DNA of 21,753 nt from a virus, in IMG/VR virus record IMGVR_UViG_3300009026_000070, positions 1 to 21,753 of that record, one strand, 5' to 3'. The notes beneath the pieces were generated by a model. That model did not search any database. It was given only the letters and a program-made list of their open reading frames with translations, and was not told where the DNA came from. A program made the position numbers and the translations under genes. Position 1 is the stretch's first letter; each line of letters begins with the position of its first letter. Positions 3,001 through 21,753 of this stretch are shown here, piece by piece.

Positions 3001-5322
3001 GAGCACGGAACCGCCCTGATAGATGCGGTTCACCGTGTGGCGGAGGTTCTCGCGGAGTTCGGTTTCCGAGCGTCCGAGAATGGCGTAGGCCATCGATCCG
3101 TCCCCGCCGGCGGCCTGTTCGCGAAGGGCGACCTGGGCGGCGTAGCGGGCGGCTGATTGCGGGTTCTCGGCCTCCATCAAGGCCATGTCCATCACCTTGC
3201 CGAGTTCCAGCCGGGTGGTGGTGTTCGGATCGGCATCGGCGAGGAAATCCGCGCTTTCCAGCATGGTGGCCATGTAGGCGACGGCATCGCCGCGCATGTC
3301 AGCGAGGAAATCGGAATGAGATTGGGCGATGCGCCATGCCCCGGCCAGGTCCGGCGAGGTGCCGACCTCCTCGCCGGTTTCCGGGTCCACGACGGACCAT
3401 CCATCAGCGGAGCGCACCATTTCCGGCAGCGCGCCGGAGGCGCGGAGCGATTCCATGGCGGCTTGCTGGGTCTTGAGTTCCTCCACGGCGGCCCGCGCGG
3501 TTTCCGATTGGGGATCGAGGTTGGAAACGAGCGTTTCGACGGCCTGCGTCTGTTCGGCGAAGGTTTTCGCCATGCGGACGTTGGAAACCGCCTCGGGACT
3601 GGCCCCGAGAGCGAGGAGTTGCCGGTCACTGGCCGCGCTGATCTCGGCGATGCGTCGCTGATCGTTCACCACGCCGACACCGGCCCCGAAGATCGCGAGC
3701 GGCAGCATGGTGACCGCGAGAGACGCGCTGTCCTTCCAGAATCCATCCAGCACGCCGTTTTTGCCGTTGCTCCACGTCACGTCCGGGATGTCGGATTCGA
3801 GCGCGTGGGCGATGTCCTGCACGAAGGACGGAACGATGTCCTGAGCTTTTTCCAGCGCCGTCTCTTCCGCCGTGCCGACCAGCCCGCGAATCGCGAACTG
3901 TCCGGCGCGGCCCGGGACCTTGGCCGTGGTTTTCTGGACGAGGCTTTCCAGCATCGGCAGCTTGCCGCGGATGGCCTTGAGTTGGAGGCGCTCCATCAGC
4001 ACTTGCGGAACCGCGGCGACGGGCGCGAGCGTGCGGGCGTTGGTGGCCGCGGTGTCGTAGTCCATGCCGGCGGCTTCGAACTCGCGGCGGTATTGCTGGT
4101 AGGCGGCCTCGTGGCTGGACGCGTAGAAAGCGGCCATGCCGAATCCCGGTATTGCTGCCGTCGCGCTGGTGACGACGGCTCCGGGAATCCCGTAGGCCCC
4201 GACCTCGAGCGTTCGCATTGAAAACACCGAATCAGAGTCCGGCGCGAGGTATTTCACCGGATCGAAGGTGGATTCCTGAACGTGGCGCACGTCCGCGATG
4301 AAATCCATCTCCCTGCGGGTGGCCTCGTCCTGGGCGGCGTTGGTTTCTCGATCCTGCAAACGCCGCTGGATTTGGGAAGGCACAAGATCCGGCATCCCGC
4401 CGCCGGCGATGTCGTGGCGGATGTCGGAAAACGCCTCGGTGTTCGTTTGAACGAATCCGAGAGCGTCGCGGCCGAACGCGGAGATATCGCGCCCGCTTTG
4501 CTTGCCGACGTTCGACCAGAAAGACGGCTGTTGCTCCGGGGCGAGCATCCCGGCCCGCAGGCGCAGGGCGGCGAGAAAACGCATGCGGGTTTCCGCGTCC
4601 GGCATGGCGTCGTAGGCATCACGCGCGGCGCTTCCCACGTCGCCCTCCGTTTCGAACGCGTTCCAGACGGCATCCAGTTGAGGGCGGAATTCCTCCATTC
4701 CCGCCGCGGCGGCCATCCGCGTGCGGTGGAACGCCTCGAAATACTCCGCCTCGCGCTCGGGATCGTAGCCCATGTGCGATTTCAGGGATTCCCGGACCTT
4801 GGCGAATCCTCCGGATTGTCCGGCGGGCATCAGGGCATCATCCAAGGCGGCGGCGCTGATCCGGCCGCGGATGTCCTTTTCGTCCTTGCGGCGGGTGGCG
4901 GCCTTGACGAGCTCGCCGTGGAAAGCGTCGTCATCCTCCGCGCCGCGTCCTTCGAAGCGCTGTGCTGCGACACGGCGGCGCATCAGCTCGTGACCGTCCG
5001 CCCCCATGGGCAGCGGCTTGCCGCCGTTCTCGTGGCGGAGGTAGCCGGCGACGAGAACCCGCCGCCTGGCTTTCTCCGGATCGTCCGCGAACTGCGGGTT
5101 GAAGGGATTCTTTTTGAAAAACGACTCGGGATCGAGGATGGCTGCGTCGAGTTTCTCAATCTGCCGGGCGCGGCGCTCGCGCTCTTCCTGGGATTGATCT
5201 TCCTGCACGCGCATCCACGGCGAGGCGAAGGTGGACGACATGCCGGCGTCCATGGGAGGATCGCCCGCGGGAATGTCGAGGGAGCCCGGGGCCTTGGGGT
5301 CGATTTGGGAAAGCGTGATCAT
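1..5322 (-). CDS. Giant gp16-like ejection / large polyvalent protein with HEFTH metalloprotease motif (C-terminus outside window)
   Basis: An uninterrupted frame of 1774 codons runs from the ATG at 5322 to the window edge with no stop, so the C-terminus is missing. The start overlaps the stop of the gp15-like gene (ATGA, 5319-5322). Residues 1-370 are charged and helical. Hydrophobic segments at about 373-400 and 533-553 could be membrane-inserting. H778-E-F-T-H782 fits the zincin HExxH signature, with glutamates at 835-844 as possible third ligands. Residues 1020-1050 are a Gly/Glu/Pro linker, followed by long charged helices and a tail with an NYAPI segment. Position after the gp14- and gp15-like genes is that of T7 gp16, the giant internal protein ejected into the host. 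Size and protease motif recall phage large polyvalent proteins. No lysozyme or transglycosylase motif was seen in the visible part. Protease activity and ejection are inferred. Confidence 0.85.
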   Translation of the reverse strand, partial: MITLSQIDPKAPGSLDIPAGDPPMDAGMSSTFASPWMRVQEDQSQEERERRARQIEKLDAAILDPESFFKKNPFNPQFADDPEKARRRVLVAGYLRHENGGKPLPMGADGHELMRRRVAAQRFEGRGAEDDDAFHGELVKAATRRKDEKDIRGRISAAALDDALMPAGQSGGFAKVRESLKSHMGYDPEREAEYFEAFHRTRMAAAAGMEEFRPQLDAVWNAFETEGDVGSAARDAYDAMPDAETRMRFLAALRLRAGMLAPEQQPSFWSNVGKQSGRDISAFGRDALGFVQTNTEAFSDIRHDIAGGGMPDLVPSQIQRRLQDRETNAAQDEATRREMDFIADVRHVQESTFDPVKYLAPDSDSVFSMRTLEVGAYGIPGAVVTSATAAIPGFGMAAFYASSHEAAYQQYRREFEAAGMDYDTAATNARTLAPVAAVPQVLMERLQLKAIRGKLPMLESLVQKTTAKVPGRAGQFAIRGLVGTAEETALEKAQDIVPSFVQDIAHALESDIPDVTWSNGKNGVLDGFWKDSASLAVTMLPLAIFGAGVGVVNDQRRIAEISAASDRQLLALGASPEAVSNVRMAKTFAEQTQAVETLVSNLDPQSETARAAVEELKTQQAAMESLRASGALPEMVRSADGWSVVDPETGEEVGTSPDLAGAWRIAQSHSDFLADMRGDAVAYMATMLESADFLADADPNTTTRLELGKVMDMALMEAENPQSAARYAAQVALREQAAGGDGSMAYAILGRSETELRENLRHTVNRIYQGGSVLTVFHEFTHGKRREARAAGRITRADEIAFLRALDQVMAGKRTRNGEALRFIPENLTDDRISEELIDEAISEVMEAEILRTREGGKTRRTPARRAGAVKTPSGFITRNLNAIARLAPGATEKFSAFIDAVRAHFGLALSRALALRKAEKEGRFDRESYDAFLHKLMGTDDKAEFDRLSSAEFQRVFQMEEDPADDIPFSLGRGKPFDMKADMRAQAEWLLDQALARGYQSLDDLLEKDPEGFNQLGREWRSAHPRGEEGNPPAGEGNPERAGDESGEGKVSLSIAPSRGLDLMRMDALSRVKNPRRRAEIFQRVSREFARLKLDAERLELTAGSKRLRKSLLKEAAMREAQRADELEREAYARHFGVLSNDELVKIKSQPVHAYLSDPHSPLRGRLMSRTAAVKMHPDMFLRNSVGEYDGSEGISRSVFGGRLMPDQAAAELFAAGLIRENTPDAMWDALRSEQAMVDKMKEAMGKAMEEIRNARAQAKAETNEWLKGEGAKQATEYSPRQEVIRALAALDAILRPLPPEIRGRIGGYQQMARIAGVKEQVAFLKETIAKADAAIETWMRSALDQEFRDLLKQTRPERDEAGRKPRGKIGANVHDLFRAVEESMGLEGHEVEAVAAGLEAQADLETTSEEQRAHLLMEANLIRLAGNWLKADAARREAALEAAAKAYYGGYMEAMIKSSARRSRIAAARAKLRIATGKAGERMEVIEREIKDSGTKLGRAKEWLLSLYSFDQVLSLAFGENSETAAMLRDWELRASNAKEDAIQRANDELESLLESLAGGKYQGEALRWNLGTDRNITVTDWKGRKQTFSQLEAITFTLMWDQEDGRRHMEGITDDEGNVISDWHWREEDREAVERQLSKDALAVRAHIREAYAAEYDRINAVFSDLYGVNMPRHKNYAPITVAPTQQPGGQIADPVSGSMIGPGLTPGSLKNRSNTAVAKPDFRDAMQTFIAHNKQMEHFIAYAPFASEAMAALNNREVLDSIKAKAGKEA
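2166..2312 (-). CDS. Possible overprinted 48-residue ORF inside the giant gene
   Basis: A second minus-strand frame with ATG at 2312 and TAA at 2166-2168 reads a well-formed Lys/Glu-rich helical peptide (PEERKEILRLAREI at its centre, ending in KAAKAK). Its third positions are mostly G or C, while the giant-gene frame here uses unusually many AGA, GGA, GAA, AAT and CCT codons in a low-complexity linker. No ribosome binding site is evident. It may be chance, a nested gene, or trace of a frameshift or domain junction. Confidence is low. Confidence 0.2.
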   Translation of the reverse strand: MTSSKKTPKASTNSAGSGDPHTPEERKEILRLAREIQNERATKAAKAK

Positions 5323-7951: not shown

Positions 7952-8344
7952 TCAGAGGGTTTTCGCGAGGTGGATGGCGTTGGGCTCGGCGAGGTGGAAT
8001 CCGCAGGCGACGGCTTCGAGGCGCATGGATTCCCGGGTGACGGAGGCGAACAGGATGCCGCGGCCGGTAGATCTGGCGTGATCTTCCAGCGCGGAGAGGA
8101 TCAGCCGGCAGGCGAGACGCGCGGCGGAGAGTTGCAGACCCGGGCGGGAAACCAGCCAGTCGATGATGGCGACATCGCATCCCGCGGGCTCATAGAGAAA
8201 CGCGGCGGCGGCGGGTCCATGCTCATCCACGGCGACGCGGCCGACCGGAGGAAGGATGCCCTCGGTCATGGTTCCATGATCGCGGGCGGCCCACCATGAT
8301 TGGATGGCCGGGAGGTGTCGGGCTTGGAAAGGTTCAACCAGCAT
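7952..8344 (-). CDS. GNAT-fold protein, T7 gp13-like
   Basis: The 130-residue protein resembles the phage GNAT-like group that includes the T7 gp13 family: an N-terminal helix with SWWAARDHG, strands around GRVAVDEHGPAAAAFLY, a central IIDWLVSRPG, a long helix after LSAARLACRLIL, and a C-terminal strand pair containing CGFHLAEPN. A canonical acetyl-CoA loop (Q/RxxGxG/A) is not evident, so catalysis is doubtful. In T7, gp13 is needed for virion morphogenesis and sits just after the tail tubular gene, as here. The start at 8344 gives an 11-base overlap with the tail tubular B gene; an ATG two codons earlier (8350) is possible. A longer upstream extension was rejected as a shadow of that gene. 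Confidence 0.72.
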   Translation of the reverse strand: MLVEPFQARHLPAIQSWWAARDHGTMTEGILPPVGRVAVDEHGPAAAAFLYEPAGCDVAIIDWLVSRPGLQLSAARLACRLILSALEDHARSTGRGILFASVTRESMRLEAVACGFHLAEPNAIHLAKTL

Positions 8345-12491: not shown

Positions 12492-13433
12492 TCAGGCGGC
12501 TTGCTCGCAGAGGATGTTCACCACGTTGATTTCGTCCTTGCGGCACGCGTTGCAGCGGATACGGCCGCGGATTTGAATCGCGCCGTCCGGATTGGAGAGT
12601 TCTTTGATGGAAGTCGTGATGTCCGTCCAGAAACCGATGCGAACACCGTTGGTCACCCACATCGGGCAGGAACGCGTGATCTTGTTCCCGGCCGGCGTGG
12701 TGGTCGGCAGTTGCTGGGAGCGGATGAAGTGGATTCCCATGAAATAGGAAATCTTCCCGTCCACAAGGGCCTTCACGTCGTTGTAGTCCGCGGAACCGAC
12801 CTGGGTCGCGTCGATGAGCAGGTTTTTCAGCTCGTCCGCGGAGACGGCCATGCAGAGCTTGCCGTCCTCTTCGTCCACGTCCTGACCGAACACCTCGTTG
12901 CGCTGGAAGATCGCCTTGGCTTGGGCGAGCTTGATCAGCGTCAGGCCGGTGTTGGCGCTGCCGCCGTCCTCGCGGTAGTTCACGGCGACGATCTGAGAGT
13001 TCGGCAGCGCGATGGCCTGCACGTTTTCCTCGGAACCCTCGTAGTTGGTGCCGAGAATGCCCTCGATGAAATACTTGTCGATGCGGCGTTTCGCGGCGCT
13101 CGTGATCTCGGTGATGATCTCCCCCTTGGGCGCGACGGCCAGCGCCAGCTCGAAAGCGTCGTCCTCGTCGAGGATCTTCGTTTTCTGGGCCTTGCGCGGG
13201 AAGAGGTAGCGGTGCTGCCAGGTTTGCTCCTCGCCGATAGTCGGCTGGAGACGGCCGGTGACATCCTCCATCTCGGTCTTGTCGATCTTCTTGAAGACGT
13301 GGCTCTTGCCGGTGAGGCCGGTCTTCACGTCCGCAAGCTCGCGGAAACGGGATTGGGTTTGCTGGGCGACGCGCATGAAACCTTCCTGGAAGACGGTGCG
13401 GGCGGCCTGAACGGTGGTGAGGGAAACACTCAT
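12492..13433 (-). CDS. Major capsid protein
   Basis: The 313-residue protein lies directly after the scaffold gene, as the capsid does in T7-like phages. It resembles the podovirus capsid family: N-terminal helix with FMRVAQQTQSRFREL (19-33), then GKSHVFKKI, a long basic stretch FPRKAQKTKILDEDDAFELALA, and DKYFIEGILGTNYEG before a mixed α/β domain. The C-terminal part (MWVTNGVRIGFW, IQIRGRIRCNACRKDEI) is the strand pair typical of HK97-fold capsids. It builds the icosahedral shell. ATG at 13433 follows a CTACCACCACC leader with no Shine-Dalgarno, although capsid should be the most abundant product. Confidence 0.87.
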   Translation of the reverse strand: MSVSLTTVQAARTVFQEGFMRVAQQTQSRFRELADVKTGLTGKSHVFKKIDKTEMEDVTGRLQPTIGEEQTWQHRYLFPRKAQKTKILDEDDAFELALAVAPKGEIITEITSAAKRRIDKYFIEGILGTNYEGSEENVQAIALPNSQIVAVNYREDGGSANTGLTLIKLAQAKAIFQRNEVFGQDVDEEDGKLCMAVSADELKNLLIDATQVGSADYNDVKALVDGKISYFMGIHFIRSQQLPTTTPAGNKITRSCPMWVTNGVRIGFWTDITTSIKELSNPDGAIQIRGRIRCNACRKDEINVVNILCEQAA

Positions 13434-13573
13434 GGTGGTGGTAGAAGTGAGGTTGGAATTTCAGAAGGGTTGAGTCTTCCGAGTGTCCTTTCTGCCACGG
13501 GCCTCTAACGAGGGTGTCCGCCGATCCGGGTCGGTGCGTTCGGTCTTCCGTCTAACGCGATCCTGAGACGCGG

Positions 13574-13602
13574 GCAATATCGTGATGGTCTGCCAATATC
13601 AA
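13574..13602 (-). promoter_or_regulatory. Candidate phage promoter upstream of capsid
   Basis: On the minus strand TTTGATATTGGC (13603 to 13592) gives a TTGATA -35-like box, a 17-base spacer and TATTGC as a weak -10-like box. The same 12-mer with the same spacing to an ATTG tetramer occurs before the portal block (17470-17498). Similarity to a σ70 promoter is only partial, so it may be another regulatory site. Confidence 0.4.
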
Positions 13603-13606
13603 ATCA

Positions 13607-13648
13607 CGCCGGAGCGTCGTGAAAACCCATCAATCCGACGCTCCGGCG
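13607..13648 (-). terminator. 13-bp stem-loop after scaffold gene (terminator or RNA-processing site)
   Basis: A perfect inverted repeat, CGCCGGAGCGTCG (13607-13619) and CGACGCTCCGGCG (13636-13648), encloses a 16-base loop, 17 bases after the scaffold stop. On the minus strand it is followed by TGATTTGATATT, which has only a weak T tract. It may be a leaky terminator, an mRNA 3'-end stabiliser or an RNase III site separating scaffold from capsid messages. Confidence 0.55.
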
Positions 13649-13664
13649 CTATCCATCGCGGGAA

Positions 13665-14522
13665 TCATTCGGATGCGCCTAGCAGGGCATAGACCTTCTT
13701 GCGCACGCCGTCTTCCCCGGCCTGCCACGCGGCATGGTCCGGGTGGGCCGGATCGTTCATGATGCGCATGGCCTCGTCAGGCGATGAGGTGAACGAAGAC
13801 CTGGGAGCGATGGAGCCTTTCGCGCGGGCCAGCGCGTCCTCGCCGAGTTGTTTTTCGAGAGCCTTCACGTATTCCCGTTCCTTCGCGAGGAACTCGACCA
13901 CGCGCGGACTGGAGAAAAGCACGGCGTCGTTCGGGTCCTCGCCGAGCTGTTCGGTGACGTAGGCGGCCAGCTCTTGCTTCCGTGATTCGTAGGCTTCGGG
14001 TCCGCCCCATTTCGATTCCAGCGCCTGACGATCCGCGGTGATCTTGTCATCATACGCCTTGGTCGCCGCGGCGAGATTCTCGGCTTCCAGTTCGGCGAAG
14101 GCCGTCGCGACGGCTTTTGCCTGGGTGTTTCCAATCTGGGCCTTGTGGAAGACCGCGGCCATTTTGGAGGCGACATCATCCGACCATTGGACGCCTTCCG
14201 GCAGCTGATCCGGCTTGAACGCGTAGCCGGATGGATCGGCGGGAACTTCGGCAAGGTGCGGATTCTTGGCGGAAAACGCCTTCTGGAGCTCGCCGTAGGA
14301 CTTGGCGAGCGTCTCGACATCGGCCGGCCCGCCATCCTTCCAATATTTCTCCGGGAACCACTCGGGACGCTGCGGAGCATTCGCCGGTGGGGGCACGTTT
14401 CCGCCAGGTGCAGGTGGCGCAGGTGCTTGAGGATCGCCACTCGCCGGTGGCGCGCCGCCTCCGCCGCCTCCTTCCGGTGGAGCTTCGTTGAACAGGAAAC
14501 GGTTGAATCGGGTCAGGATCAT
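13665..14522 (-). CDS. Scaffold / capsid assembly protein (gp9-like)
   Basis: The 285-residue protein begins with a Gly/Pro/Ala-rich disordered stretch (residues 14-50), followed by the scaffold-type motif RPEWFPEKYW then DVETLAKSYGELQKAF (about 67-82), a long helical coiled-coil-like middle and a basic-acidic C-terminus with FTSSPDEAMRIMNDPAHPDH. This is the usual podovirus head-assembly protein that nucleates capsid assembly and leaves the head. It lies directly upstream of the major capsid gene, as gp9 does before gp10 in T7. Start 14522 has an SD-less ccacccatc leader. Confidence 0.88.
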   Translation of the reverse strand: MILTRFNRFLFNEAPPEGGGGGGAPPASGDPQAPAPPAPGGNVPPPANAPQRPEWFPEKYWKDGGPADVETLAKSYGELQKAFSAKNPHLAEVPADPSGYAFKPDQLPEGVQWSDDVASKMAAVFHKAQIGNTQAKAVATAFAELEAENLAAATKAYDDKITADRQALESKWGGPEAYESRKQELAAYVTEQLGEDPNDAVLFSSPRVVEFLAKEREYVKALEKQLGEDALARAKGSIAPRSSFTSSPDEAMRIMNDPAHPDHAAWQAGEDGVRKKVYALLGASE

Positions 14523-14552: not shown

Positions 14553-14624
14553 TTGCGGGGGATGGAATCGAACCATATTTCAGGGGAATATGAGTCCCCT
14601 CGCTCGCCGTTTGCGTTCCCCGCG
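14553..14624 (-). tRNA. tRNA-Met(CAT), initiator (fMet)-like
   Basis: I folded this by eye on the minus strand. The acceptor CGCGGGG pairs with CCCCGCA except for a C1/A72 mismatch, followed by discriminator A73. The anticodon stem GGGGA/TCCCC is perfect around loop CTCATAT (anticodon CAT, T33, A37). The T loop is TTCGATT with G53-C61, and the D loop has A14 and G18G19. Acceptor sequence, C1/A72 and purine-11/pyrimidine-24 are known initiator-tRNA traits, and the acceptor matches the E. coli fMet acceptor as I recall it. Weak points: only 3 D-stem pairs, A instead of T at position 8, a T49/C65 mismatch, A31-T39 in place of the third G-C pair, and encoded CCC instead of CCA. It fills the only intergenic gap between the HeH-protein and scaffold genes, so it would be cut from the head mRNA. 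Confidence 0.72.
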
Positions 14625-14633
14625 TTTTGGAAA

Positions 14634-15248
14634 TCAGTCTTCCTCCTCCTCCTCTTCGTCGGTCTGCTTTTCAAGTTCGGTGAGGTTGGAAACCGGGCGC
14701 AGCGTGATGGCTTCGAGGTAGAGCTTCACAAGCTCATCGGTCTTGGCCCGGCCGTCGAACTCGACGCCGCGCTCTTTCAATGCCGCGGCGAGTTCCTTCT
14801 TGTTGGCCGGCGAGCCCTCCGGCAGCCCGAGCGCGTTGAGCGGCGGGGACTGGCCGGTCATCTCCTGCGGCGCGGGAGCGGATGGAGCGGCCGGCGCGAT
14901 GTCGAACGGCACGCTTCCTTGATACCGGCGTTCGAACTCCTCGCGCGGGAAGTTCTTCCGGGCGTAATCCACCGCGGCGGGCGTGTGGTGACCCTGGTGA
15001 GGCGTCATGAGCGCGCGGATTTCTTCCGGAAACTCCATCAGCGGCGCGGCGGCCTTCACCACCTCGTCACCGACCAGCACGGAAACGGGGATTCCTTGGG
15101 TCCGCATGAACCACGCCTTGGCCTCGTCCCGGAGACCTCCGAACGCGTCGTTCAGGCGAAGTGTGTGGGTCTGCACGTCATACTTTCCGATGGGATCGTC
15201 TCCCTTGAAAAGGTGGCGCATCTGGTAGATGTGGAAGCGGTCATTCAT
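14634..15248 (-). CDS. HeH/SAP-like domain structural protein with acidic tail
   Basis: The 204-residue protein has an N-terminal region rich in aromatic and charged residues (1-110), a Pro/Ala linker (112-135), a helix-extended-loop-helix (HeH/LEM-like) motif at about 149-180 (NKKELAAALKERGVEFDGRA then KTDELVKLYLEA), and a C-terminal run of Glu/Asp (EEEEEED). HeH domains occur in phage head and packaging neighbours and may bind DNA or protein. It overlaps the preceding small gene by 8 bases and sits between portal and scaffold, so a virion or assembly role is likely. Exact function is unknown. Confidence 0.8.
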   Translation of the reverse strand: MNDRFHIYQMRHLFKGDDPIGKYDVQTHTLRLNDAFGGLRDEAKAWFMRTQGIPVSVLVGDEVVKAAAPLMEFPEEIRALMTPHQGHHTPAAVDYARKNFPREEFERRYQGSVPFDIAPAAPSAPAPQEMTGQSPPLNALGLPEGSPANKKELAAALKERGVEFDGRAKTDELVKLYLEAITLRPVSNLTELEKQTDEEEEEED

Positions 15249-15540
15249 CGTCGTGGTCGGTTTCTGGTTTGGATTTGCCGTCGTAGGCGGAGTTGAGAAT
15301 TTCCGAGATGAACGCCCGGAAGCCGTCGCGGTGCGCGGCGGTGGTCGGATTCATGCCGTCCGCGGCGTCGAAGACGCTGCCCATGTAGTTCGTGCGCGCC
15401 ATGGCGAGCGAGAGCCACTTGCGGCCCTTCACGGTGTTGAAGAGTTCGCGCGTCGCCCGGAAATAATCCCGCTCGGATTTCGCCTTGGCGGCTTGCTGTG
15501 CCTCGAACAGCGCGATGGGATCTTCAAGGAAATCAGGCAT
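15241..15540 (-). CDS. Small Bbp19-like phage protein
   Basis: The 99-residue helical protein has the pattern FRATRELFNTVKGRKWLSLA ... TTAAHRDGFRAFISEIL, which resembles the Bbp19-like small proteins found beside portal genes in podoviruses. It begins one base after the portal stop and overlaps the next gene, so it is expressed with the head genes. It ends in an acidic tail (ETDHDDE). Family assignment is moderate and function is not established. Confidence 0.78.
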   Translation of the reverse strand: MPDFLEDPIALFEAQQAAKAKSERDYFRATRELFNTVKGRKWLSLAMARTNYMGSVFDAADGMNPTTAAHRDGFRAFISEILNSAYDGKSKPETDHDDE

Positions 15541-15541
15541 A

Positions 15542-17203
15542 TCAGGCGGGTGTAGGGATCTTCACGCCGGCGTTGCGCGCCGCCTCGCTGGCGAGTTTCG
15601 CCTGTTCGAGCTCGGCCTGTTGCTGGGCGGCGCGCGCTTTCTGGTCGCGCATGGCGTCGCGGTCCTTTTCGGGTCGCAGCATTTTCTCATCGATCCCGTC
15701 GTTGCGGGCCGTGCGGCGGAGATACTCGTCAACGTCGATGTTTTCGAGGGCGGACGCGTCTCCGCCGGCGGCCAGATTGATGGCGCGCTCGATCATGCGA
15801 TCCGCAGCCGCGGTTTCTGCCTGACGGATGGCGAGCGCCAGGCGGGATTGATAGATCACCTTGGGCGGCGGCACCTCGGCCAGTCCGCCGGCGGTCCTGC
15901 GGATCACCGATGCGGGGATTTCATCGGCTTTGCCGAATGCGCCGGCGCGAAAAAGCACCGCGAAGATCCGTTCCATGAGGATTTGGAAATCCGCGGTGAA
16001 GCGTGTGAAAGTCGTCGATTGGGGAAGCAGCTTCTCCGCCGCCAGCTCGGCGACCTCGCGGGCCGTCATCTGCTTCTCGCGATCCGCGAACATGCGCGCG
16101 GTGTCGTAGTGGAACGCCTTGCGGATGGCCTGCCGGTCATCCTCGATTTCCTCGATGAGACCTTGCGGGTTGCCCTTGTTGAGCCACTCCTGGGGAAGGT
16201 TGGAGTTCTTGCCGTTGAAGACGGTCTTGCCGCCTGGGCGCTGGTCGATGTTTCCGATCAGGTCATCCGGGATGAGGATGGACGGCACTGCCTGACGCTG
16301 CCGGACCACTTGCAGAATCTGCTTGGTGCGGTTGACGTTGAGCACCGCGGCCTTGACCTGTTGGAACGGCGCGAATCCGTATTGCTGTTTGGAGCCGGAC
16401 GATTTGAGATAGCGCGAAACCATGTAGGGCAGCTCCTCGAATCCGGATCGCTCGAGCATCCGGGTTTCGTCCCTGCCGTCCTCGCAAACCCAACACGAGG
16501 CGAAACGCATGTTGAAGATGTCCCGCTTCGTCGCGTCCCGATTGATGCGCGGAAAGACGGCGTGGATGACGATGTGCTCGGCGTTGATCCCCTTTTCCGT
16601 GAAGGCGGCCAGGCTCTTTGAGAGCTTGTCGTTTTTGGCAATCGCCTGCTCGCCGAACATCTCGTGGATCTGCGAGATGGAATAGGGACGGCGGATGAAA
16701 ATGGTGTTCACGTTTCCGTCCGCGTCCTCCTCGCAACAATAGGAGCCGATGGGATGCGTCTGGAAGGAAATCAGGTTTTCCGGGTGGGGCATCGCCCCCA
16801 TGCACGATATCGAGAAACCGGAACGGTCCTCGAAAGCCTCGTTCAGCATGGTGTGGAAGTTGCTCCCCGCCATGATCTTCACGGCGGTTTCGCTGGCCTT
16901 GTTATACCATCCGTCCGCCTCGTCGCTCTTGATCCCCTCCGGAGCCTCCCACGCGAACCACTGCGATCCCGCGGGCGTGATGTTGGTGGCGTGGAAGCTG
17001 GCCAGCGTCGCGATGCACTCGATCAGCGTTGTGTCATAGAGCTTGTTGGCCGGCTGCCCGCCGGGCCCCACCTGGTTGCCGAGAATGTTGCCCTTGCGCG
17101 GCATGCCGAGATCTGCGACTTGCTGCCACTCGGAATCCCACGGCGAGCGGTCGGAGAGCATGCGCCCCCAGCGGGCAAGGACGGCTTTGGCGGTTTCCTG
17201 CAT
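15542..17203 (-). CDS. Portal protein (T7 gp8-like head-tail connector)
   Basis: At 553 residues it is close to T7 gp8 (about 536). The N-terminal pattern LARWGRMLSDRSPWDSEWQQ followed by LYDTTLIECIATLASFHATN, then WEAP and SNFHTMLNEAFED, is that of the Head-tail_con family. Central YGFAPFQQVKAAVLNVNRTK and the C-terminal Ala/Gln/Glu helix (about 500-550) fit the stem and crown of the dodecameric portal. It forms the DNA channel and docks the terminase. Its ATG shares one base with the preceding stop (TGATG at 17203), indicating translational coupling. Confidence 0.93.
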   Translation of the reverse strand: MQETAKAVLARWGRMLSDRSPWDSEWQQVADLGMPRKGNILGNQVGPGGQPANKLYDTTLIECIATLASFHATNITPAGSQWFAWEAPEGIKSDEADGWYNKASETAVKIMAGSNFHTMLNEAFEDRSGFSISCMGAMPHPENLISFQTHPIGSYCCEEDADGNVNTIFIRRPYSISQIHEMFGEQAIAKNDKLSKSLAAFTEKGINAEHIVIHAVFPRINRDATKRDIFNMRFASCWVCEDGRDETRMLERSGFEELPYMVSRYLKSSGSKQQYGFAPFQQVKAAVLNVNRTKQILQVVRQRQAVPSILIPDDLIGNIDQRPGGKTVFNGKNSNLPQEWLNKGNPQGLIEEIEDDRQAIRKAFHYDTARMFADREKQMTAREVAELAAEKLLPQSTTFTRFTADFQILMERIFAVLFRAGAFGKADEIPASVIRRTAGGLAEVPPPKVIYQSRLALAIRQAETAAADRMIERAINLAAGGDASALENIDVDEYLRRTARNDGIDEKMLRPEKDRDAMRDQKARAAQQQAELEQAKLASEAARNAGVKIPTPA

Positions 17204-17436: not shown

Positions 17437-17469
17437 TTGCGGCGCTTCTAGCCCGCTTCCGCAGGCCGA

Positions 17470-17498
17470 TCAATTCCGCGGGTCTCCGCCAATATCAA
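17470..17498 (-). promoter_or_regulatory. Candidate phage promoter upstream of the portal block
   Basis: The minus strand reads TTTGATATTGGC (17499 to 17488), giving TTGATA, a 17-base spacer and AATTGA, and the element overlaps the stop codon of the 76-residue protein. It repeats the 12-mer found upstream of capsid at equal internal spacing. It lies 33 bases before the small pre-portal gene. Confidence 0.4.
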
Positions 17499-20757: not shown

Positions 20758-21360
20758 TCAGCTTGAAACGCGCTGGCCGGTGATCGGGCAGCGGCGGGGA
20801 TTGAAGATGGAGACCGCGACGCGGATGTTGTTTTTCGGATCGTGGAGGGACTTGTCCCAGGCGATGATTCCGGCCCCGGAGGAAAATCGGAAAAAGAGGG
20901 GCTCCATGACGGTGGCATCACCGCACCAGATTTCGCAGCGCGGCAGGCGGGAGATGAGTTGGAGGTGATGGAGGCGGATACGGTGACGTTCCGCGACGCA
21001 GCAGACGGGCGATGGTGCCACACGCGCGCCAAGCCACGGTGAAATGGGCGGCTTGCGGAATAGACTTGGACGGACGTCGTGCATGGCGCGCCAATCTCCG
21101 GCCGGAAGGTCGCCGTGACGGCCCCATGGGAGTTTTTCGAGCCGGGCGAAGAATCCGGGCGGAGCCGGTGAAAAATCGGAATCCATCCAAAGTCCGCGCG
21201 AGACGCGGATTGCGAGGTAGCCATTGCCGGCGAGGACGGCGCTGTCGCGGCCGGAGCCGGTGACGTGGGGGGCGGAAAGCAGGTGGCAGGTAGCCGGGTG
21301 GCAAAATTCTTCCAATGCTCCGAGCTGCAGGGGATAGGGGAAAGGTGTCTTGGAACTCAT
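20758..21360 (-). CDS. Hypothetical protein coupled to the integrase
   Basis: The 200-residue protein is not recognised with confidence. It is mixed α/β, Pro- and Arg-rich, with segments SGRDSAVLAGNGYLAIRV (about 36-53), HLQLISRLPRCEIWCG (about 132-147) and LFFRFSSGAGIIAWDK (about 154-169). The last pattern is seen in phage hypothetical proteins near replication genes and weakly recalls clamp-like proteins, but that is speculation. Its ATG at 21360 overlaps the integrase stop as ATGA, and the replication gene starts 18 bases after its end. A role in replication or integration is inferred only from context. Confidence 0.78.
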   Translation of the reverse strand: MSSKTPFPYPLQLGALEEFCHPATCHLLSAPHVTGSGRDSAVLAGNGYLAIRVSRGLWMDSDFSPAPPGFFARLEKLPWGRHGDLPAGDWRAMHDVRPSLFRKPPISPWLGARVAPSPVCCVAERHRIRLHHLQLISRLPRCEIWCGDATVMEPLFFRFSSGAGIIAWDKSLHDPKNNIRVAVSIFNPRRCPITGQRVSS

Positions 21361-21753
21361 GCGCTGCGTTTGAAATCCGTGATGTTGCTGGTAGCGTGAT
21401 CGAGTGGCGAGACGGCCCGGCTCGCCAACCGCGGCAGGCAGTGCAGATAGATTTTGGTAGTTTCGATGCTGGTGTGCCCCATCAACTCCCGCAGTTCCTC
21501 GATGGTCCCGCCGTGCTCCAGATAGGCCGATGCGAAGCCGTGGCGGAATGTGTGCGCGGTCACCCGCTTCGATACACCCGAGCGCCGCACTGCGATCTTG
21601 AGAGCCTTGGAAAAGCCCTCCTCATGCCGGTGATGCCGGCGCACGATGCCGCTTGCTTTGTCGGTGCTCTCACCTGGTGCCGGCCATAGCCAGAACCACG
21701 CCCATTCTTCTCCCGCGCGGGGATATTTGGTCGCCAGACTGTCGGGAAGCGCA
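21357..21753 (-). CDS. Integron-integrase (IntI)-type tyrosine recombinase, N-terminus outside window
   Basis: The C-terminal 131 residues are visible (first full codon at 21752). The catalytic parts include HTFRHG (HxxR), the LMGH histidine and the nucleophile in TTKIYLH. Ahead of them is the segment that distinguishes IntI from other tyrosine recombinases: KYPRAGEEWAWFWLWP, then SGIVRRHHRHE; class 1 IntI1 has, from memory, KYPRAGHSWPWFWVF and SGVVRRHH. The ending SPLDHA also matches the IntI SPLD tail. About 200 residues, including the first catalytic Arg, lie beyond the window. The ATGA overlap with the next gene places it in the phage operon. It probably integrates the phage; use of integron-like folded or attI-like sites is possible but not shown. 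Confidence 0.9.
   Translation of the reverse strand, partial: ALPDSLATKYPRAGEEWAWFWLWPAPGESTDKASGIVRRHHRHEEGFSKALKIAVRRSGVSKRVTAHTFRHGFASAYLEHGGTIEELRELMGHTSIETTKIYLHCLPRLASRAVSPLDHATSNITDFKRSA

Follow-up and report, generated by a model that had tools for sequence, protein, structure and literature searches.

Why bacteriophages encode tRNAs has been debated for 50 years, with codon supply as the main line of argument, and sense codons cannot be supplied by an initiator tRNA. What, then, would an initiator-like tRNA do among the head genes of a phage? We asked this of a 21,753-nt stretch of viral DNA (IMG/VR record IMGVR_UViG_3300009026_000070; hereafter the window), in which an initial annotation had placed an initiator-like tRNA with the anticodon CAT. 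As described below, the tRNA at 14553-14624 on the minus strand is real, evolutionarily maintained and of the initiator type.

The window phage is a small podovirus. Its minus-strand operon runs in the order small terminase, large terminase, portal, gene C, gene B, tRNA, gene A, capsid and then tail genes (tail tubular A and B, tail fibre, internal virion proteins). The portal/head-tail adaptor (15542-17203, minus strand; phrog_332) is followed on the same strand by gene C (99 aa; 15241-15540) and gene B (204 aa; 14634-15248), which stands immediately 5′ of the tRNA and has only a weak, 31-residue match to phrog_1539. Immediately 3′ of the tRNA is the scaffold/protease-like gene A (13665-14522, minus strand; phrog_3742, and phrog_458 'protease'), and beyond it the gene for the major capsid protein, MCP (12492-13433, minus strand; phrog_3437). 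The tRNA had been said to fill the only gap between genes; this is incorrect, as further gaps of 231 nt (13434-13664, between A and MCP), 153 nt (8181-8333) and 58 nt (17437-17494) are present. The ATG of gene A lies 31 nt from A73 of the tRNA and has no Shine-Dalgarno (SD) sequence, and no promoter or terminator match was found between the tRNA and this ATG. The scarcity of SD sequences, also part of the annotation, was borne out, with good ones at 2 of 19 window genes compared with 25% of random positions. Nearly all window genes are without one, and several head genes carry C/A-rich leaders, such as CCACCACCATG.

A tyrosine integrase gene is truncated by the contig end (C-terminal part, 21357-21752, minus strand; PF00589, 4e-15; phrog_216), and the phage is therefore probably temperate. 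No named phage has a portal more than about 30% identical to that of the window, Pelagibacter phages coming nearest. Judged by kinship of contigs only, the host is probably a member of Verrucomicrobiota: portal relatives occur in 38 of 388 Verrucomicrobiota genomes, and the sole capsid relative found among bacterial genome contigs lies in an Akkermansiaceae MAG. An MCP single-sequence query against viral contigs gave no matches; an alignment query succeeded.

Among the relatives are prophages in Verrucomicrobiota genomes (L111-L121 and L124), with a portal about 31% identical to that of the window. Eleven prophages of Akkermansia-like genomes have, directly after gene A, a host tRNA-Val(gac) on the opposite strand, and host-like genes lie beyond it in the one prophage examined, suggesting either that the prophage ends inside the head operon or that these are remnants without a capsid gene. 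This tRNA-Val was rejected as a homologue of the phage tRNA, being a host gene on the other strand; a search of stretches around one genome turned up no duplicate of it. In G197, a gene for an 862-aa protein, alpha-galactosidase-like by eye (L106, 3038-5626, minus strand), together with other genes sets gene A about 6 kb from the capsid gene. The relative L007/L170 carries the 5′ half of a tRNA-Arg(TCT) beside its integrase (L170, 4138-4191; IMGVR_UViG_3300001765_000200, 24138-24191). Over 48 bases this half matches a tRNA locus in G197 with 94% identity, and it is likely the phage attachment site, attP.

A test fixed beforehand, whether tRNA scanners score the locus, came out in favour of a tRNA. 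The sole ARAGORN call in the window is a tRNA-Met(cat) at 14554-14623 on the minus strand, its ends reflecting the trimming of the mismatched end pair. With the local region as query, Rfam RF00005 scored 38.6 bits (E 3.8e-7; curated cut-off 29 bits) and spanned exactly 14553-14624. The default whole-window Rfam pass missed the tRNA at 14553-14624, which the local search recovers, and the first pass of our genome search missed it too, because the tRNA is atypical. The tRNAs of the relatives L002, L010 and L021 also score above the RF00005 cut-off (46.6, 45.0 and 38.3 bits). R1, a model built from the four focal tRNAs (window, L002, L010 and L021), gives the window tRNA 97.1 bits, the window being one of its four building sequences. 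The folding energy is unremarkable on its own (z -1.6); what decides that the tRNA is real is conservation and compensatory change.

Read on the minus strand, the tRNA (positions 1-73, from C1 to the discriminator A73) begins with the acceptor strand CGCGGGG (14618-14624), which pairs with CCCCGCA (positions 66-72; 14554-14560), as judged from the sequence and pair counts, except for C1, mismatched with A72. Next come A8, A9 and a compact D arm (14601-14617), in which a 3-bp stem, CGC/GCG with the pair G11:C24, closes the D loop AAACGGCGA. After a single A there follow the anticodon arm GGGGA-CTCATAT-TCCCC (14583-14599; CAT at 14590-14592), where U38 replaces A38, the segment TGAAA and the T arm TATGG-TTCGATT-CCATC (14561-14577). 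The CCA end is incompletely encoded, A73 being followed by CC (reading ACCC), and of the four focal tRNAs the window's alone has a mismatch at 49:65. All four focal tRNAs have A8 and the 3-bp D stem; position 8 is near-universally U in tRNAs, and U8 with a 4-bp D stem is usual, though not absolute. A8 for U8, the 3-bp D stem and the 49:65 mismatch could make a poor tRNA. The compact D arm with its AAACGGCGA loop is, on comparison of sequences, the signature of a phage tRNA lineage, to which we return below.

The annotated acceptor arm with C1×A72, the purine 11:pyrimidine 24 pair and CAU are all as claimed. Two hallmarks of bacterial initiators, the 1:72 mismatch (as C1×A72) and the 11:24 pair (as G11:C24), are present in 4/4 focal tRNAs, and the window tRNA also has CAU, U33 and A73. 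A mismatch of the C1×A72 type is the classic barrier to use as an elongator. The block of three G:C pairs, G29-31:C39-41 in classical initiators, turned out to be incomplete: in the window the pairs are G:C, G:C and A:U (31:39), and the block is complete in L010 only. This is less damaging than it looks, because Akkermansiaceae initiators have A29:U41 and so lack the first of the three pairs themselves. In an Akkermansiaceae MAG (L059), the initiator alone among 29 tRNAs has a 1:72 mismatch. Direct comparison with host tRNA-fMet gave a divided answer. In full-length alignment the tRNAs of L002, L010 and L007 are nearest the host initiator, whereas that of L021 is nearer the host elongator Met (43.5 versus 25.5 for the initiator) and that of the window is ambiguous, and this alignment alone leaves initiator identity unsettled for the window and L021. 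The T arm and acceptor differ from the sampled Akkermansiaceae fMet, a family that may not be that of the true host.

Stronger evidence comes from related phages, in which, as the initial annotation had proposed to check, the paired stems are kept with compensatory changes. The tRNA occupies the same gap, between B and A, in L002 and L006, and lies one gene upstream, between C and B, in L010 and L021; L003, L004, L009, L024, L025 and L027 have no tRNA at either place. L007/L008 carry a broken fMet-like copy in the C-B gap (24.4 bits), with the D arm and pair 31:39 disrupted. Across the four stems of the focal tRNAs, 98.7% of cells are paired, with 12 two-sided changes, a result reached in 0/500 shuffles; neither shuffled nor slid structures came near the observed pairing. 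All five anticodon-stem pairs vary yet remain paired among the relatives, and 1:72 stays C·A in 4/4. Such covariation around a constant C·A supports a functional initiator-type tRNA and speaks against a decaying copy, a leftover of an attachment site or a fold that does no more than signal processing. The annotated initiator type and co-transcription with the head genes are likewise supported.

The capsid proteins of the tRNA-bearing phages have diverged to about 54% identity, indicating that the tRNA gene has long been kept. In the capsid tree these phages stand in separate places, the window being sister to L006 (100/99). Such a pattern is consistent with an old tRNA gene that was lost several times, although transfer could also account for it. 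One further candidate carrier, L019, was rejected as a chance match to the first tRNA pattern. In L002 the end of gene B (4733-5173) overlaps the tRNA (5137-5212), its last codons forming the tRNA 5′ half and its stop codon, TAA, lying within the anticodon loop CTCATAA.

The 231-nt gap upstream of the capsid gene holds RNA elements of its own. At 13473-13533 on the minus strand lies a structured RNA, a hairpin in which the same internal loop, with ACAA facing a single C, occurs twice in opposite orientations. Across 12 phages, 89.3% of its cells are paired, with 13 two-sided changes and 0/500 shuffles as good. It is conserved throughout the clade, with or without the tRNA; its model, R2, matches only in the window's clade and in MAG G018, and no Rfam family matches it. 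It could regulate capsid synthesis or serve as a site for packaging or protein binding. Between gene A and this leader an inverted repeat of 13 bp without a mismatch, closing a 16-nt loop (13607-13648, minus strand), is possibly a terminator before a capsid promoter, and stem-loops occur at the equivalent place in several relatives.

The compact tRNA is not confined to the window's clade; it is one of a phage-specific tRNA-Met lineage that is widespread. At least 120 IMG/VR contigs matched a pattern scan for the compact signature (3-bp D stem and AAACGG D loop); the scan itself selected AAACGG and CTCATA, and the figures for the lineage describe that class only. Sinorhizobium phage phiM5 (MF074189, 7352-7426) has a compact tRNA-Met just after its major capsid gene, which R1 scores at 73.9 bits versus 48-54 for canonical initiators. 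Of the 31 best-scoring members listed outside the window's clade, with phiM5 among them, the 1:72 end is mismatched in 25, in several different ways. In the ARAGORN register the mismatch is found in 31/60 lineage tRNAs versus 16/392 non-CAT tRNAs of the same contigs (Fisher 6e-20), all these mismatch counts being lower bounds, since ARAGORN trims unpaired ends. The 31 mismatched members have R11:Y24 in 21 cases, G30:C40 in 25 and the three G:C pairs in 2; A38 is kept in 30/31, and U38 is found in the window and L010. R11:Y24 does not tell mismatched members apart from paired ones, and some of the lineage, phiM5 included, has a paired 1:72. The variety of 1:72 mismatches, together with the loose counts of R11, G30:C40 and the three G:C pairs, suggests that what is kept is an open end, whichever bases form the mismatch, and that the remaining marks of an initiator are only loosely held to.

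Where the neighbours of lone loci beyond the clade could be named, they are packaging, head or tail genes in 10 cases (phiM5, L225, L201, L248, L232, L213, L245, L247, L194 and L227) and other genes in 8 (L199, L202, L209, L217, L231, L222, L257 and L256); placement in structural operons is thus recurrent, but may be no more frequent than chance would give. We raise as a tentative proposal, itself rather doubtful, that many unrelated phages share a compact initiator lineage (3-bp D stem, AAACGG, open 1:72), separate from the tRNA-fMet of cells and frequently located in late operons for packaging, head or tail, for seizing initiation or surviving host toxins that destroy the initiator.

Other functions for the window tRNA have to be weighed. 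It could be a decoding tRNA that supplements codons, either elongator Met or Ile2 (with CAU read after lysidine modification): CAU is common to all three types, L021 aligns better with the host elongator while the window is ambiguous, and a part of the lineage pairs 1:72. Given that C1×A72 stands in all four focal tRNAs and that the best alignment of three relatives is to the host initiator, we regard a decoding role as improbable. Similarly low is the probability that the fold is mainly a processing signal, at which RNase P and 3′ nucleases would split the portal/C/B message from the scaffold/capsid mRNA. The tRNA does lie between co-oriented genes, close before an ATG and without a promoter or terminator match, and stands where tRNA-less relatives have overlapping gene ends. 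A signal of this kind, however, would have no need to keep CAU, C1×A72 and A73; moreover, the place of the tRNA varies (C-B or B-A), several relatives do without it, and in L002, where the gene B stop is inside the anticodon loop, processing would cut the gene B message.

Two readings tied to integration appear less probable still. The initial annotation had offered, as an alternative, a captured tRNA left at the phage attachment site; this, or a decaying relic, would account for the broken L007/L008 copy and has a parallel in the Akkermansia-like prophages (portal ~31% identical) that end by a host tRNA-Val just past gene A. It was not supported, and we consider it very unlikely: covariation extends over all four stems, no 11-mer of the tRNA is repeated elsewhere in the window, and the only attachment-like site seen in the clade, the tRNA-Arg(TCT) half, adjoins the integrase. 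At the window tRNA itself there is neither an adjacent integrase, that gene being about 7 kb off, nor identity to the end of the sampled Akkermansiaceae fMet. The same distance weighs against tRNA-dependent lysogeny, in which a phage tRNA makes up for a host tRNA that the integrating prophage has disrupted, a mechanism established in mycobacteriophages (PMC10865867). The window phage does encode a tyrosine integrase, but its tRNA lies among late head genes, an operon that a lysogen would be expected to keep silent, and the integrase-side site in L007/L170 is a tRNA-Arg(TCT) 5′ half rather than fMet, the window's own attP lying beyond the contig end. This explanation, too, has very little probability in our estimation.

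We consider it fairly probable, though well short of certain, that the locus encodes a functional phage initiator-type tRNA, cut from late mRNA, which adds initiation capacity or replaces destroyed host tRNA-fMet. To the cloverleaf with its maintained C1×A72 and CAU, its covariation and its same-strand place in the head-gene operon, we add by inference late-mRNA processing, charging, formylation and use in initiation. Excision of the tRNA from the late polycistronic mRNA would fall to host RNase P and 3′ tRNA nucleases, and the product would be completed to CCA and charged by host MetRS. The open 1:72 would permit formylation by host MTF and, at the same time, exclude the tRNA from elongation, and IF2 would bring the phage fMet-tRNA to the P site. 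The tRNA would be made only while the head genes are on. The benefit may be extra fMet-tRNA for initiation on the mainly SD-poor capsid mRNAs, or a substitute for host tRNA-fMet cleaved by VapC-type toxins; the evidence does not separate these two inferred benefits. VapC cleaves where the anticodon stem meets the loop (PMC8522696), and phage tRNAs that evade nucleases are reported to be marked by changes in the anticodon loop (PMC10264068), so that by analogy U38 in the window and L010 may hint at tRNA-fMet replacement or nuclease evasion. S. flexneri phages are reported generally to avoid the target tRNA-fMet (PMC10264068). PIN proteins occur in 21/30 genomes of the likely host family, none known to cut tRNA-fMet. 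Counting against the initiator reading are the incomplete block of three G:C pairs, the loose hold of the lineage on R11:Y24, the lineage members with a paired 1:72, the relatives without a tRNA and the degenerate L007/L008 copy.

Phage-encoded fMet-like tRNAs are already known from public records, some of which look like host contamination. Our search of the open-licence literature turned up no description of a compact lineage of phage initiators, or of an initiator tRNA within a head operon. A lone initiator-type tRNA that a small phage keeps through large sequence change, its open 1:72 preserved while its stems drift, points away from codon supply and towards initiation control or anti-nuclease defence. 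Its odd D arm also characterises a group of tRNAs that are overlooked or trimmed by standard scans.

With Akkermansiaceae tRNA-fMet (L059) the window tRNA shares CAU, a mismatched 1:72, A73, R11:Y24, G30:C40 and the T loop TTCRA, but it has a 3-bp rather than 4-bp D stem with the short D loop AAACGGCGA, A8 A9 in place of U8 G9, an incomplete CCA and a location embedded in a phage head operon. The annotated tRNA-fMet of large, tRNA-rich phages such as Escherichia phage JohannJBalmer is likewise phage-encoded, with CAU and a mismatched 1:72 (C·C); unlike the window tRNA, it has a canonical D arm and belongs to a many-tRNA array in a 145-kb phage. The nuclease-evading tRNAs of PMC10264068 resemble the window tRNA as phage tRNAs with a change at the anticodon-loop edge (U38 in the window), the link to nuclease evasion in the window being, in contrast to those, a correlation only. 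The phiM5 tRNA-Met has the compact D arm with AAACGG, A8, CAU, a site in the head operon and a similar T loop, TTCAATT; it differs from the window tRNA in its 1:72, a U:A pair, in its phage, from the LUZ24-like podovirus group, and in its position within the operon.
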